Shown one piece after another: positions 56,452 through 62,051 of a DNA stretch of 64,000 bases. This DNA is from an uncultured Chlorobiota bacterium. Lineage in GTDB: Bacteria; Bacteroidota; Ignavibacteria; UBA10030; UBA6906. The DNA lies in NCBI GenBank assembly GCA_900696645.1, contig CAADGV010000033.1, forward strand, positions 124,001-188,000. The letters are read 5' to 3'. The number at the start of each line of letters is the position of its first letter. Positions within the stretch are counted from its first letter, which is position 1. The notes under the pieces were generated by a model. It had not been told where the DNA came from. It worked only from the letters and a program-made list of their open reading frames with translations, and ran no database searches. A program made the position numbers and the translations under genes.

Positions 56452-57597
56452 ATGTCATTCTTCGAGGATCAGGAAATGGTTATTATCGGGTTCACCCATT
56501 TTGATGAACTGCTTTCGGCATTGCGCAAACGGGATTACACGGTCATCGGGCCTGTTGCCCGTGATGGGGCAATCGCGCTCGACGTCATTCTTTCTGCTTC
56601 CGACTTGCCGAAGGGCTGTCACGATGAACAACAGCCCGGCTCGTACTTCCTGAGGCATGAGGAAGATGAAGCAATCTTCGGTTATGTAGTGGGCCCGCAA
56701 TCCTGGAAGAAATATTTGTATCCACCCCGGCTGAAGCTCTTTTCTGCAAAGCGGGAAGGGAAGGGCTTTGAGATTGTATCGGATTCCGCTACTCCATCCC
56801 CAAAGTATGCGTTTCTGGGAGTTCGTCCTTGCGAAATCGGTGCGATAAAAATCAACGACTCCGTTTTTGATGGCGGTCAGTATAGCGATGCCCGATATGT
56901 GTCAACAAGAAAGGATGCGTGTGTTATTGCAGTGAACTGCACACGCCCTGCCGGAAATTGCTTCTGCGTGTCAATGAACACGGGACCACGGGCTACACAT
57001 GCATTCGATTTGGCGCTGACAGAGATATGCGAGAACGGTACTCATCATTTCGTTGTTGACGTGGGCAGCGAATTGGGGCAGAGCATACTTGAAGACGTCA
57101 CACATAGACAGGCTGAGAAGAATGAAATCGAGCGTGCCTTGGATCTGCTGTCAACATCGGCTGCTGGCATGTGTAAATCTCTCGAAACGGAAGGATTGCC
57201 GCAGTTGCTGAACGACAATTATGAGCATCCTGAATGGGACGACGTCGCAAAACGATGTCTTGCATGTGCCAACTGCACAATGGTGTGTCCGACGTGTTTC
57301 TGTTCCACCGTGGATGATATCACAGACCTCACCGGCGATCATGCAGAACGATGGCGCCGATGGGACTCCTGCTTCACTTCGGACTTCACCAAAATAGCAG
57401 GCGGGAACATCCGCATGTCAACACGGACGCGGTATCGTCAGTGGATGATGCACAAACTCGCACACTGGCATGATCAGTTCGGGACATCGGGTTGCGTCGG
57501 GTGCGGTCGCTGTATTACGTGGTGCCCTGTGGGGATTGATATAACTCACGAGGCACAACACATTCGAGAAACAAGTATCTCAACAATCAACTCGTAA
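56452..57597 (+). CDS. hydB: [NiFe] hydrogenase beta subunit, iron-sulfur (sulfhydrogenase type)
   Basis: 381 residues. C-terminal ferredoxin-like domain with two [4Fe-4S] clusters: C269, C272, C275, C279 in RCLACANCTMVCP, and C348, C351, C354, C358 in GCVGCGRCITWCPVG. The N-terminal region (PRLKLFSAKREGKGF, FLGVRPCEIGAIK) matches HydB/HyhB of group 3b bifunctional hydrogenases, which pass electrons between hydrogenase core and NAD(P) module. Start ATG 56452 gives the normal N-terminus; ATG 56479 is an alternative. First gene of the hydrogenase operon. Confidence 0.9.
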   Translation: MSFFEDQEMVIIGFTHFDELLSALRKRDYTVIGPVARDGAIALDVILSASDLPKGCHDEQQPGSYFLRHEEDEAIFGYVVGPQSWKKYLYPPRLKLFSAKREGKGFEIVSDSATPSPKYAFLGVRPCEIGAIKINDSVFDGGQYSDARYVSTRKDACVIAVNCTRPAGNCFCVSMNTGPRATHAFDLALTEICENGTHHFVVDVGSELGQSILEDVTHRQAEKNEIERALDLLSTSAAGMCKSLETEGLPQLLNDNYEHPEWDDVAKRCLACANCTMVCPTCFCSTVDDITDLTGDHAERWRRWDSCFTSDFTKIAGGNIRMSTRTRYRQWMMHKLAHWHDQFGTSGCVGCGRCITWCPVGIDITHEAQHIRETSISTINS

Positions 57598-57608
57598 GGA
57601 GATTGAGC

Positions 57609-58085
57609 ATGGAAGACCTAACCATAATTCTCCGTCAGCATCCGTTTCTTCGCGGCTTGTCAGATGAACACATGCAGACATTGATTGGGTGTGCAACAAA
57701 CGTCAGGTTTGCAGAGAATTCCCGTCTTATCAACGAGGGAGAACTGGCGAACAAGTTCTTTCTCATTCGTAGCGGACGTGTGGCTTTGGAAACGGAAGTG
57801 AGCGGACGGGGCGGTATCCGCATTCAGACTGTCGGTCCCGGTGAGGTGCTTGGATGGTCGTGGCTCATCTCCCCGTATCGCTGGCACTTCAGCGGTGTGG
57901 CCGTGATGGACACGCGCACAATTGCTCTCGATGCAGAGTGCCTCCGCAACAAATGCGAAACAGACGCGCATTTCGGCTATGAAATGTTGAAGCGTCTGGC
58001 CTCCGTAATGGAGCGACGTCTCGAGGCAACGCGGCTGCAGTTGCTCGACATGTATGGCATTACCTCATCAGGAGTAATGCCATGA
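57609..58085 (+). CDS. cyclic-nucleotide-binding-domain protein without DNA-binding domain
   Basis: 158 residues. A Crp/Fnr-type beta roll (FLIRSGRVALETEV, VGPGEVLGWSWLIS) with the C-terminal helix (EMLKRLASVMERRLEATRLQLL), but no helix-turn-helix. Such proteins bind a ligand or modulate partners rather than DNA. Inserted between hydB and hydG with AAGGAG upstream and a 4-bp overlap with hydG, so it is made along with the hydrogenase. Ligand cannot be inferred; position suggests a redox or allosteric control part. Confidence 0.82.
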   Translation: MEDLTIILRQHPFLRGLSDEHMQTLIGCATNVRFAENSRLINEGELANKFFLIRSGRVALETEVSGRGGIRIQTVGPGEVLGWSWLISPYRWHFSGVAVMDTRTIALDAECLRNKCETDAHFGYEMLKRLASVMERRLEATRLQLLDMYGITSSGVMP

Positions 58086-58942
58086 AGGATGAGTTGGCAA
58101 ATCGCTCGTTGCCGATGTCGGATGCTATGATGACGTATCCCGTCACGATCCGCAAAGTAATTTGGGAGAATGACGACACGTTCACTCTCACTCTGGATAT
58201 GAACGGGACGCTGGGTGAATTTTCGTTCCTCCCCGGTCAATTCAATATGCTGTATGTATACGGAATAGGGGAGGCGGCAATTTCAATCAGCTCTGACCCG
58301 TCAAGAACAGGAACTCTCGACCATACAATTCATCGGGTAGGCACGGTGACGACGGCGCTTTCCCAGAAGAAGAGGGGCGATGTCATCGGCGTTCGCGGCC
58401 CGTACGGTTCAAGTTGGCCGCTTGATGTCGCACAGAAACGGGATGTCTGTGTTATCACCGGGGGCATCGGACTTGCACCTTTGCGGCCTGTAATCTACTC
58501 CCTCCTGAAGAAACGCGACGAGTACGGGCGTATCATCATTCTGTATGGGGGCAGAAGTCCGCTGGATTTGCTTTACCGCGTGGAGCTTGAACGATGGGAG
58601 GATGCGAAGAATGTGGAAGTTCTGGTAACGGTTGATCGTGGTGACTCGTCGTGGAAAGGTCACATCGGCGTTGTGACCTCTCTCCTGTCGTATATAAAGC
58701 TTGATTCGCGTAACACGATAGCGTATGTCTGCGGACCCGAGATCATGATGAAATATACAATTGACGAGCTTGAACGTCGCGGCTTGCCGCTTGATAGAGT
58801 TTACCTTTCGATGGAGCGGAACATGAAGTGTGCAGTCGGCTTCTGTGGGCATTGCCAATACGGACCGACATTCATCTGCAAAGATGGCCCCGTGTTTCCG
58901 CTCCCTCGGATTCGACCATTGCTGGATAGGAAGGAGTTGTAG
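58082..58942 (+). CDS. hydG: [NiFe] hydrogenase gamma subunit, FAD/NAD(P)-binding
   Basis: 286 residues. FAD-binding beta barrel, NAD(P) Rossmann-like domain with [14 protein letters not shown] and YVCGPEIMM, and a C-terminal [2Fe-2S] site C250, C255, C258, C266 (C-x4-C-x2-C-x7-C). The HydG/HyhG module that exchanges electrons with NAD(P)H. Start overlaps the upstream gene as ATGA. Normal length. Confidence 0.9.
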
Positions 58943-58944
58943 AG

Positions 58945-59721
58945 ATGCCTGCAAAGAAACCGAAACTGGCGGTATTTAAGTTTGCATCCTGCGATGGGTG
59001 CCAGCTCTCTCTTCTTGACGCTGAGGATGAACTCCTTCCGGTTGCGGGAGCAGTGGAGATTGCCAACTTCCCTGAAGCAAGCCGACGCGTCCTGCGCGGC
59101 CCGTACGACATCGGATTGGTGGAAGGCAGCATCACCACTCCGCATGATGTTGAACGGATCAGGCATATTCGCAAGGAGTGCAAAGTACTGATTACAATAG
59201 GCGCATGCGCAACAGCCGGCGGTATACAGGCATTGCGGAATTGGAAGGATGTGAAGGAGTTTACGAGACTTGTGTACGCCTCCCCCGAACATATTTCGAC
59301 ACTCGACCGCTCAATGCCTGTAGGGTCGTATGTACATGTTGATTTTGAATTGCGAGGATGTCCTATCAATAAATATCAACTCCTTGAGGTAGTCAATGCG
59401 TACCTCAATAAGAGAAAGCCGAACATACCGGCGCACAGTCTCTGCATCGATTGTAAGACCAAGGGGAATATTTGTGTGATGGTCGCAAAGGGGACGCCTT
59501 GCCTCGGTCCTGTTACGCAAGTGGGTTGCGGGGCAATATGCCCCTCGTTCAATCGCGGATGCTACGGCTGTTTTGGACCGATGGAAAATCCAAACCCTGC
59601 TTCGTTGAGCAAGCAACTGAAAGAGTTGGAAATGGGCAATCATGACATCATGCTCTTGTTCCGCGGGTTTAACGCATATGCAGAGGCGTTCCGAAAGGAG
59701 AGCGACGCGCATGAAAAATAG
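58945..59721 (+). CDS. hydD: [NiFe] hydrogenase small (delta) subunit
   Basis: 258 residues. N-terminal cluster motif C16-DG-C19 in [14 protein letters not shown], then [12 protein letters not shown]-type region FELRGCPIN, and C-terminal cysteines in [13 protein letters not shown] and [19 protein letters not shown] for further [4Fe-4S] clusters. Transfers electrons to the NiFe subunit. 2 bp after hydG; its end overlaps hydA by 11 bp. Confidence 0.92.
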
Positions 59722-60994
59722 GATTATCAAAGTCGACCAACTTGCCCGTGTTGAAGGTGAGGGAGCGGTGTTTGTCAAGATCAGCGAGGGGAAGGTGACG
59801 GATGTGAAGTTCAAGATATTTGAGCCACCCCGCTTCTTCGAAGCGTTTCTTCGCGGAAGGGATTACTCTGAAGCACCTGATATCACAGCTCGCATTTGCG
59901 GTATATGTCCCGTTGCATATCAGATGAGCGCCGTGACGGCAATGGAGGATGCTTTCGAAATTGAAGTTGACGGCCAACTGCGGGAACTGAGAAAACTTCT
60001 CTACTGCGGTGAATGGATTGAAAGCCATGTTCTTCACATCTACCTGCTTCATGCGCCGGATTTTCTGGGCTATGAAGATGCGCTACTTCTCGCAAAAGAC
60101 CAGCCGGACCTTGTGAAGAAAGCCCTTCGCATGAAGAAAATCGGCAACGATCTGATGACTCTGATCGGAGGACGGGAGATACATCCGATCAATGTCAAGG
60201 TCGGCGGCTTCTATCGTGTACCGACAGAATCAGAGTTGGAGAAGAAACTTGATGAACTGAAATGGGGGCTGGAGGGTGCAATAGAAACGGCTAAACTTGT
60301 CAATACGTTTGAGTTCCCTGATTTCGAAGTTGACTATGAGTTTGTATCGTTGAAGTATCCGCATGAGTATCCGCTTATCGGCGGGAGATTCGTCAGCAGC
60401 AGCGGATTGGATATCGCCATTCGTGAGTACGAATTCCACTTTGAGGAACGGCATATTCCCCACTCAAACGCCCTTCATTCTGTGGAAAAAGGGAAGGGAC
60501 CGTATGCTGTTGGACCGCTTGCCCGTTTCAATTTGAGTTTCGACACCCTGTCGGAGACAGCTAAACAAGTGGCACGTGATATCGGTGTGGCTCCTGTGGT
60601 AAAGAATCCATTCAAGAGTATTGTCGTTCGTGCCATTGAAACCATTCATGCATACCAAGAAGCTATTCGCATCATCAATCAATACGAAATGCCCGGGCAA
60701 CCGTCGGTTGAAATTCAACCGCAATCCGGCATCGGATTCGGAGCAAGCGAGGCACCGCGAGGCACATTATATCACCGCTATCGGGTAAATGATGACGGGA
60801 CGATTCTTGATGCGAAGATTGTGCCCCCCACAGCACAAAATCAACCAACAATAGAAAACGATTTGCGGCTCTTTGTCTCGGCGAACGTTGACTTGCCACG
60901 TGAGAAACTGACATGGAAGGCGGAGCAGGCAGTGCGTAACTACGACCCGTGTATATCGTGCGCAACGCATTTTGTGACCTTGGAGAAGGAGTAA
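59711..60994 (+). CDS. hydA: [NiFe] hydrogenase large (alpha) subunit
   Basis: 427 residues. L1 motif C63-GI-C66 ([10 protein letters not shown]) and L2 motif C414-IS-C417 (DPCISCATH420) coordinate the NiFe site. The C-terminal tail after H420 (seven residues) is removed by the maturation protease. Group 3b-type architecture fits the hydB and hydG partners. ATG 59711 is set by the first conserved residues and overlaps hydD by 11 bp. Confidence 0.93.
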
Positions 60995-61044: not shown

Positions 61045-61482
61045 ATGGCAACGCGCTATGAACACACACAAATCGGTATGGTTATGGTGGGACTGCTGGC
61101 GCTCGGGATATTCTGTGCAACATTCTGGATGATCTATCTTGGATTCAGTTGGACAGGTCTGCTTGTGCTTGTTGCACTTGATGTGTCCCTGATTCTGCTC
61201 TCGACGCTGACCGTGACAATCGAGAACAGAATCCTCGTGATTTCATTTGGGCCGGGAGTGATTCGAAAGACATTCGATTTGAATCAGGTACGAGACTGCT
61301 TTGTAGTCTCAAATCCGGTACACTATGGTTTCGGTATCCGCTGGATGCCTGGAGGTTGGCTCTACAATGTGTCGGGTACACATGCAGTTGATTTGACTAT
61401 GAAGACAGGTAAGCACTATCGCATAGGTACCGATACCCCGGAAGATCTTGCACAAGCGATTCGACAAGCTATTGGTGCGTGA
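61045..61482 (+). CDS. membrane protein with two helices and PH-like domain, within the hydrogenase operon
   Basis: 145 residues. Two adjacent membrane helices (about 10-30 and 36-52; MVMVGLLALGIFCATFWMI, LLVLVALDVSLILLSTL) and a C-terminal beta-rich domain (TVTIENRILVISFGPGVIRKTFDLNQVRDC, IRWMPGGWLYNVSGTHAVDLTMKTGKHYRIGTDTPEDLAQAI), a bacterial-PH-like pattern. AAGGAGGG is a strong Shine-Dalgarno. Lies between hydA and the protease gene. I do not recognise its role; it could anchor or tune the otherwise soluble complex. Confidence 0.72.
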   Translation: MATRYEHTQIGMVMVGLLALGIFCATFWMIYLGFSWTGLLVLVALDVSLILLSTLTVTIENRILVISFGPGVIRKTFDLNQVRDCFVVSNPVHYGFGIRWMPGGWLYNVSGTHAVDLTMKTGKHYRIGTDTPEDLAQAIRQAIGA

Positions 61483-61520
61483 CGCGGGTGGCAGCATCCG
61501 CGAGGCATAAGGGGATGGTG

Positions 61521-62051
61521 ATGCAACAGAGTATAACACCTTCTGCAAGAAGGAAGAGGACGAACAAACAGAGACCGGAGTCACTACTGGTCATAGGCGT
61601 TGGCAACGAGTACAGAAGTGATGACGGGCTGGGCATCTGCGTTCTGCGCACGCTGCGTCGTCGTGTGAACAATGACGCAAGAATGATCGAGCTCAGCGGG
61701 GAAGGTTCCTCACTTATGTCTGCGTGGAGCGACGCGGAACATGTACTCATCATTGATGCCGTTGTGTCAGGGGGGCCCGCGGGTATGCTGCATCGACTTG
61801 ATGCAAAGCGCGAGAAAATTCCGAAACATCTCTTTCATTCGTCGAGTCATACTTTTGGCGTGGGCGATGCTATCGAGCTTGCGCGTGACCTTGATGAGCT
61901 TCCGCAATCTCTTATTCTGTACGGACTTGAAGGCGAATCATTCGAGGCTGGTGTAGGGCTATCGGAGTCTGTTGTACGCATGGTGCCGGATCTCATTCAC
62001 TTGGTCGAACGTGATATCGAGCGGCTGTTGCGCACAGAGTCTTGCTCATAA
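61521..62051 (+). CDS. hydrogenase maturation protease
   Basis: 176 residues from ATG 61521, which has AAGGGG at 6-bp spacing; GTG 61479 would add a weak extension. Family motifs: VIGVGNEYRSDDGLG (Ni ligand Glu), IIDAVVSGG, and HTFGVGDAIELARDL with C-terminal VLYGLEGESFE-type LILYGLEGESF. Cleaves the hydA tail after H420. Positioned directly after the hydrogenase genes, as expected. Confidence 0.88.
   Translation: MQQSITPSARRKRTNKQRPESLLVIGVGNEYRSDDGLGICVLRTLRRRVNNDARMIELSGEGSSLMSAWSDAEHVLIIDAVVSGGPAGMLHRLDAKREKIPKHLFHSSSHTFGVGDAIELARDLDELPQSLILYGLEGESFEAGVGLSESVVRMVPDLIHLVERDIERLLRTESCS

Follow-up and report, generated by a model that had tools for sequence, protein, structure and literature searches.

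HoxI of the soluble hydrogenase of Cupriavidus necator is the described protein with which the product of the gene studied here is best compared. It is a stand-alone protein of 167 aa with a cyclic-nucleotide-binding-type domain (CNBD), encoded alongside an NAD(P)-linked [NiFe] hydrogenase and part of the HoxFUYH enzyme, and passages of three papers describe it as a homodimer on the diaphorase with an NADPH activation site (PMC3702609), as separating readily from the hydrogenase core (PMC3189943), and as binding no FeS cluster (PMC7363133). A response to NADPH does not need HoxI, since the soluble hydrogenase of Hydrogenophaga pseudoflava, according to a passage of PMC12809855, has no HoxI gene, yet is NADPH-responsive. 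Furthermore, comparable genes have been recorded in clusters for group 3b hydrogenases: in a methanotroph cluster the protein was already named HoxI (a passage of PMC12319191), and in Rhodococcus equi such a gene is listed (a passage of PMC13332983).

A functional study of a CNBD gene from a 3b cluster was not found in searches of open-licence papers. The gene was known beforehand as a member of 3b clusters; what we add is its clade-wide distribution, its repositioning within the operon, its losses, the Trp cassette of its product and a link to the slot occupied by hoxI. Hydrogenases of group 3b occur widely among bacteria, and, to our knowledge, it is unclear what determines the direction of H2/NAD(P)H exchange in them. 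A conserved extra subunit of a whole 3b branch, of similar type to a subunit of the soluble hydrogenase employed in biotechnology, would, if real, offer a direct handle on the control of this direction.

Here we describe such a gene in the window, the whole stretch of 64,000 nucleotides of DNA that was analysed, where it lies between hydB and hydG, unlike hoxI, which follows the protease gene in a hoxFUYH operon. We would give about an even chance to the reading that its product is a HoxI-like, non-DNA-binding accessory subunit of one branch of 3b hydrogenases that modulates HydB/HydG, a reading which draws on operon membership, conservation, the predicted fold, the lack of a helix-turn-helix, and the loss of the canonical Glu and of a conserved Arg.

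The CNBD gene and its hydrogenase operon

The features of the operon are the following.

56452–57597, + strand: hydB-like beta subunit, Fe-S (Fer4_22), 381 aa; NF040833 148 bits, cut-off 750
57596–57602, + strand: Shine-Dalgarno-like site of the CNBD gene, AAGGAGA, with two initial bases shared with the hydB stop
57609–58085, + strand: CNBD-only protein, putative HoxI-like accessory subunit, 158 aa; intact frame of 158 codons plus stop
58082–58085, + strand: ATGA overlap of the CNBD-gene stop with the hydG start, translational coupling, read in the sequence
58082–58942, + strand: hydG-like FAD/NAD(P) subunit, 286 aa; NF040835 169.5 bits, cut-off 650
58945–59721, + strand: hydD-like small subunit, 258 aa; NF040831 165.8 bits, cut-off 460
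59711–60994, + strand: hydA-like [NiFe] large subunit, 427 aa; NF040828 294 bits, cut-off 700
61479–62051, + strand: hydrogenase maturation protease; TIGR00072 107.6 bits, over its cut-off

The HydB-HydG-HydD-HydA set of group 3b [NiFe] hydrogenases is thus complete in this operon, and the HydA translation contains the motifs RICGICP and DPCISC. We call the enzyme NAD(P)-linked because of the HydG-type FAD/NAD domains. The cut-offs of the NCBIfam sulfhydrogenase equivalogs are not reached in the window (294 against 700 bits for NF040828, 148 against 750 for NF040833); these models presumably describe archaeal-type enzymes. Archaeal enzymes of this kind are encoded by a four-gene operon.

The frame at 57609–58085 is a real coding gene, as judged by 42 silent against four residue-changing codon differences, of 158, to its nearest relative (in genome G001). 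Its ATG follows the hydB stop after a gap of 11 bp and is preceded 7 nt 5' by AAGGAG, and this Shine-Dalgarno-like site favours ATG 57609 over TTG 57603 as the start. The genome from which the window comes holds no second match to the protein at E 0.001. An earlier note, made from the sequence of the window, had placed the gene inside a [NiFe] hydrogenase operon, between hydB and hydG and coupled by ATGA to the latter, and it was right on each of these counts: the flanking genes match the HydB, HydG, HydD, HydA and protease families, and the spacing and the overlap are as listed.

Two further frames of the region are of minor note. A 145-aa frame (61045–61482) sits between hydA and the protease gene; it has no Pfam match at E 0.001 and is absent at E 1e-8 from the other stretches tested. 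Divergent from hydB, an O-methyltransferase gene (PF01596; 55592–56302, − strand) has homologues of 49–51% identity at the same place beside two CNBD-less operons (L102 and L104); no other stretch tested held a homologue at E 1e-8.

Linkage to one clade of HydA

A profile scan of named genomes returned at least 546 relatives of the CNBD protein, of which the best 80 were analysed. These best 80 of at least 546 come, going by their titles, from 14 phylum-level or similar groups, and HydB is encoded directly upstream in 78 and HydG directly downstream in 76 of them; the exceptions are two loci with HydB only (L073 and L076, the latter ending soon after) and two with neither (L075 and L079). Among the nearest loci, the order HydB-CNBD-HydG was found in 20 of 20. 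As closest matches, the best 80 of at least 546 form a biased set, and samples drawn by way of HydA are less so. Across three such samples of genomes, 60 of the 62 operons that could be read from one HydA clade contain the CNBD gene; in the first two samples, it is found in none of the stretches read around 19 operons with more distant HydA.

The first sample comprised 60 relatives, 31 of which encode a HydA of at least 60% identity (a contig-end fragment in G008 was left out). CNBD matches at E 4e-45 or better occur in exactly these 31 genomes (31/31), 22 of which were read as loci and nine assessed from coordinates and strand along the contig with hydA; for G009, G020 and G047, hydA is located on another contig. 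Four genomes of one family have a HydA of 38–39%, with HydB adjoining HydG and no CNBD.

The second sample, 149 genomes from the phylum of G061 (locus L070, Pyrinomonadaceae), has a HydA match in 29. The CNBD gene lies between hydB and hydG in all nine with a HydA of at least 51% and is missing from all 15 with a HydA of 33–42%, five genomes with 30–32% being left out of these counts. One genome (G123) has a CNBD copy and no HydA match at all.

The third sample consisted of 201 genomes from the phylum of G062 (locus L059, Chloroflexota), 40 of them with a HydA match. From the 25 with a HydA of at least 48% we left out G357 and G386, whose loci are truncated, and G266, which has no other hyd genes beside hydA. 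The CNBD gene is present in 20 of the 22 readable operons: 12 times between hydB and hydG (ten from loci that were read and two, G407 and G399, from coordinates), three times directly upstream of hydB, and five times directly upstream of a fused hydB-hydG. No CNBD gene was found within the stretches read in G338 and G246. At a HydA of 38–41%, a relative lies downstream of hydA in at least two of 12 genomes (G232 and G236), and the other ten show no CNBD match at E 1e-25 (their operons do not enter the count of CNBD-less operons); three genomes with a HydA of 31–33% were left out.

The note had taken the gene to be dedicated to its hydrogenase operon and had proposed to look for it at the same place in other operons. 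The linkage did persist, both in these three samples and among the best 80 of at least 546 loci.

Trees, losses and fusions

In a HydA tree of 56 rows (38 with the CNBD gene, 18 without), the rows with the gene are set apart from the rest by a branch with support 100. The clade holds in a tree with Chloroflexota added (46 rows), in which two losses are nested within it and two cases with the gene downstream of hydA fall in the other lineage. Both trees were quick ones with some long branches and give neither root nor direction; their simplest reading would be that the CNBD gene was gained once and later lost.

The two losses (L178 and L179), operons of the CNBD-bearing HydA clade without the gene, indicate that the enzyme can do without the protein, which argues against an essential structural role. 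Together with the CNBD-less lineages, they provide natural controls for the role of the subunit. Upstream of hydB, both loci have what appear by eye to be a response regulator and a histidine kinase, the kinase of L179 having also been tested by search.

Five Chloroflexota loci (L165, L166, L167, L180 and L182) encode HydB and HydG as one fused frame of 654–738 aa, according to HMM matches and, for L165, also to Pfam, and in each of them the CNBD gene lies directly upstream. Its retention there argues against a role solely as a joiner of the two subunits. These loci also bear on a different explanation, in which the protein is an assembly or maturation factor that would keep HydB and HydG in contact while they are assembled co-translationally and would be absent from the mature enzyme. 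The position of the gene between hydB and hydG, with its 11-bp gap and ATGA overlap, is what such a factor would lead one to expect; however, the gene is kept even where HydB and HydG are a single polypeptide, the 19 operons of other HydA lineages lack it in the stretches read, and the CNBD fold is usually that of a sensor. We consider an assembly factor unlikely.

Some minor observations concern the same loci. Long frames that suggested fusions of the CNBD itself (849 aa in L165, 450 aa in L166 and 589 aa in L075) were rejected; by eye, their extra N-terminal parts are low-complexity translations of non-coding type. Residues 55–76 of the window HydB are a 22-residue insert that occurs in the CNBD-bearing HydA clade and is missing from the other lineage. 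As a docking site for the CNBD protein it was rejected, since L178 and L179 still have it without the CNBD gene; it thus marks the HydA clade and not the CNBD. Lastly, the hydA of L181 (G266) belongs to the same clade and has no adjoining hydB, hydG or hydD, possibly due to misassembly or a split operon.

Predicted fold and ligand pocket

The sole Pfam domain of the CNBD protein at E 0.001 is PF00027 (cNMP_binding; 46.2 bits, residues 32–119). An AlphaFold2 model built from 78 sequences (pLDDT 88.7, pTM 0.81) shows two N-terminal helices, a beta roll, a short cassette helix (84–86), a helix at 109–118 and a long C-terminal helix (120–154), after which it stops, so that no helix-turn-helix is present. 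In this it differs from CRP, FNR and GlxR, with which it shares the beta roll and the long helix. The description given in the note, a CNBD-type protein that keeps the beta roll and the helix without a DNA-binding domain and is not a transcription factor, agrees with this domain content. The best match among solved structures is 3mdp (Z 20.2, rmsd 1.8 over 132 residues), that is Gmet_1532 of Geobacter metallireducens, likewise CNBD-only and with the cassette GVSSLIKPY, like the wider family, although only 25% identical to the window protein. Regulatory domains of protein kinases, channels and CRP-type regulators follow. Among the further structural likenesses is the mycobacterial lysine acetyltransferase Rv0998 (Pat; 4avb/4avc, Z 16), in which a CNBD serves as the regulatory module of an enzyme; in contrast to the window protein, its CNBD is, as we understand it, fused to the enzyme and not separate, and its structure was solved with cAMP according to the entry title.

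In the phosphate-binding cassette of CRP, a Glu contacts the ribose and an Arg the phosphate. Alignments with PKG, E. coli CRP and HoxI all place Trp83 at the Glu position, and this Trp is invariant in 81 sequences, namely the window protein and the best 80 of at least 546 relatives. The Arg position corresponds to Trp92, also 81/81 in this set, in two of the three alignments; in the third, the Arg of E. coli CRP is aligned to a gap adjoining residue 91, where 32 of the 81 sequences have Arg and 17 have Lys. None of the positions listed between 89 and 97 holds Arg in half or more of the 81 sequences. Ser84, Trp85, Pro89, Cys28 and Cys111 are invariant as well in this set of the window protein and the best 80, and Cys116 is present in 77. 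Outside it, more distant hydrogenase-linked copies vary: position 83 carries Ala in Paraburkholderia and Val in Rhodococcus, L143 has Arg at position 92, and the Chloroflexota copies upstream of hydB lack the second and third Trp.

Judged from these alignments, the canonical cyclic-nucleotide site is not conserved, and the cassette is strongly constrained in the branch of the window. The replacement of Glu by Trp in all 81 sequences and the lack of a conserved Arg at the phosphate contact make cAMP or cGMP, bound in the usual way, probably not the ligand. Near-invariance of a cassette that seems to have lost its cyclic-nucleotide contacts points to another ligand or a partner. As for a ligand, the main options are NADPH, as the analogy with HoxI suggests, and none at all. 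Comparison of the pocket with Crp, which the note had proposed, thus gave a divided answer, with fold and cassette helix in place in the model, the Glu replaced by Trp and no conserved Arg at the phosphate contact; its suggestion of ligand sensing would hold only for a non-canonical ligand.

A true cAMP- or cGMP-responsive allosteric subunit, relaying a second messenger to the hydrogenase, is accordingly a quite improbable reading, against which stand the invariant Trp83 (81/81), Trp92, equally invariant and placed at the Arg by two of the three alignments, and the want of an Arg in half of the sequences at any of the positions listed between 89 and 97. It can nevertheless appeal to the Pfam score over cut-off, to the likeness to cyclic-nucleotide-bound structures, to the uncertain equivalence of the Arg (the gap beside residue 91, a position with 32 Arg and 17 Lys among the window protein and the best 80), and to the Arg at column 92 of the distant, hydrogenase-linked L143. 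Cyclase domains count in its favour too: class III domains occur in 59 of 60 relatives, the genome of the window included, while class I domains were found in none of the 60. A lack of cyclases, considered as a reason to doubt a cyclic-nucleotide ligand, was rejected; with class III domains present, only the site itself makes that case.

The conserved cysteines raise a further alternative, a redox switch in which Cys28, Cys111 and Cys116 would sense oxidation and gate the enzyme. Their conservation among the window protein and the best 80 of at least 546 relatives (81, 81 and 77 of 81) is in keeping with it; however, the hydrogenase-linked copy of Rhodococcus has F, M and A at the three positions, and Cys28 and Cys111 are absent from eight copies upstream of hydB or hydB-hydG, some of which retain a Cys at 116. 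Such a switch seems to us very improbable. Cys116 was also tried, and rejected, as a mark of hydrogenase linkage: three of the four copies without it (L034, L035 and L055) adjoin HydB and HydG, and the fourth (L079) does not.

Comparison with HoxI and a possible mode of action

The HoxI gene of C. necator (pHG1; L021:14836–15339) was recognised from its position behind the protease gene, its record bearing no gene name; the order there is hoxH, protease gene, hoxI gene, hypA, hypB, hypF. HoxI is 22% identical to the window protein over 95 residues and, in contrast to it, keeps a GEL cassette and has neither the GWSW motif nor any of the three cysteines. A profile of our family scores E. coli CRP above HoxI, and a wider profile reverses this (HoxI 44 against CRP 34 bits). 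We regard “works like HoxI” as the best available model of the window protein by analogy; orthology is a separate claim.

By this model, the protein would dimerise through its long C-terminal helix, and the dimer would dock on the electron-input module formed by HydB and HydG, which may be expected to pass electrons between NAD(P)H and the Fe-S chain. Docked there, it might tune the module according to a ligand or to redox state, as reported for HoxI on HoxFU. Its effect would then probably be an adjustment of the NAD(P)H side of the enzyme and not of gene expression.

Relatives in other contexts

Relatives also occur elsewhere, in contexts labelled by family matches or annotations that are not tests of function. 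Six lie away from hydrogenase genes: L145 follows a FabI-type enoyl-ACP reductase, L107 has a sensor kinase and L109 a cytochrome c protein as neighbour, L113 and L114 belong to Streptomyces plasmid regions, with universal stress and CBS proteins in the former and a globin nearby in the latter, and the sixth is L079. Copies of this sort would suit a free signalling protein with a role elsewhere in the cell and no tie to the hydrogenase beyond a common operon; the linkage in 60 of 62 readable operons and the repositioning within the operon speak against it, and we hold it to be scarcely probable.

Other relatives are found with different hydrogenases. In L175 (1979–9993), a distant one follows the protease gene and precedes hypB and hypF in a HoxYH-like operon, the same place as that of the hoxI gene except that hypA intervenes in C. 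necator; its large and small subunits share 45% identity with HoxH and HoxY of C. necator, and the best NCBIfam model for the large subunit is VhuA, under its cut-off. A further relative (L176) lies downstream of hydrogenase genes similar to those of L175.

Beyond the HoxI-like reading of the window protein, these contexts allow a wider, tentative proposal, which we think possible but doubtful: a family of detachable Trp-cassette CNBD subunits (mostly G-W-S-x-L-x-x-P) may form an interchangeable regulatory module of redox enzymes, with a pocket that reads a pyridine nucleotide or another planar metabolite. Its members would be built like the cAMP receptor and no longer be one. One 3b branch would have gained the module and kept it through fusion and rearrangement, a second 3b lineage would have taken it up separately, downstream of hydA, and further copies would sit in the HoxI slot of a HoxYH-like enzyme and beside Hdr-like, FabI-like and acetyl-CoA synthetase genes.

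Two loci hold additional details. In L079 (3058–8474), the relative has an acetyl-CoA synthetase and a GNAT/CoA-ligase protein as neighbours, a setting reminiscent of mycobacterial Pat, and the same bin holds a CNBD copy linked to a hydrogenase (L034). L168 (6995–10621) encodes a pair of CNBD-only relatives: hydA lies upstream of one of them, and 4Fe-4S and HdrB-like genes precede the other.
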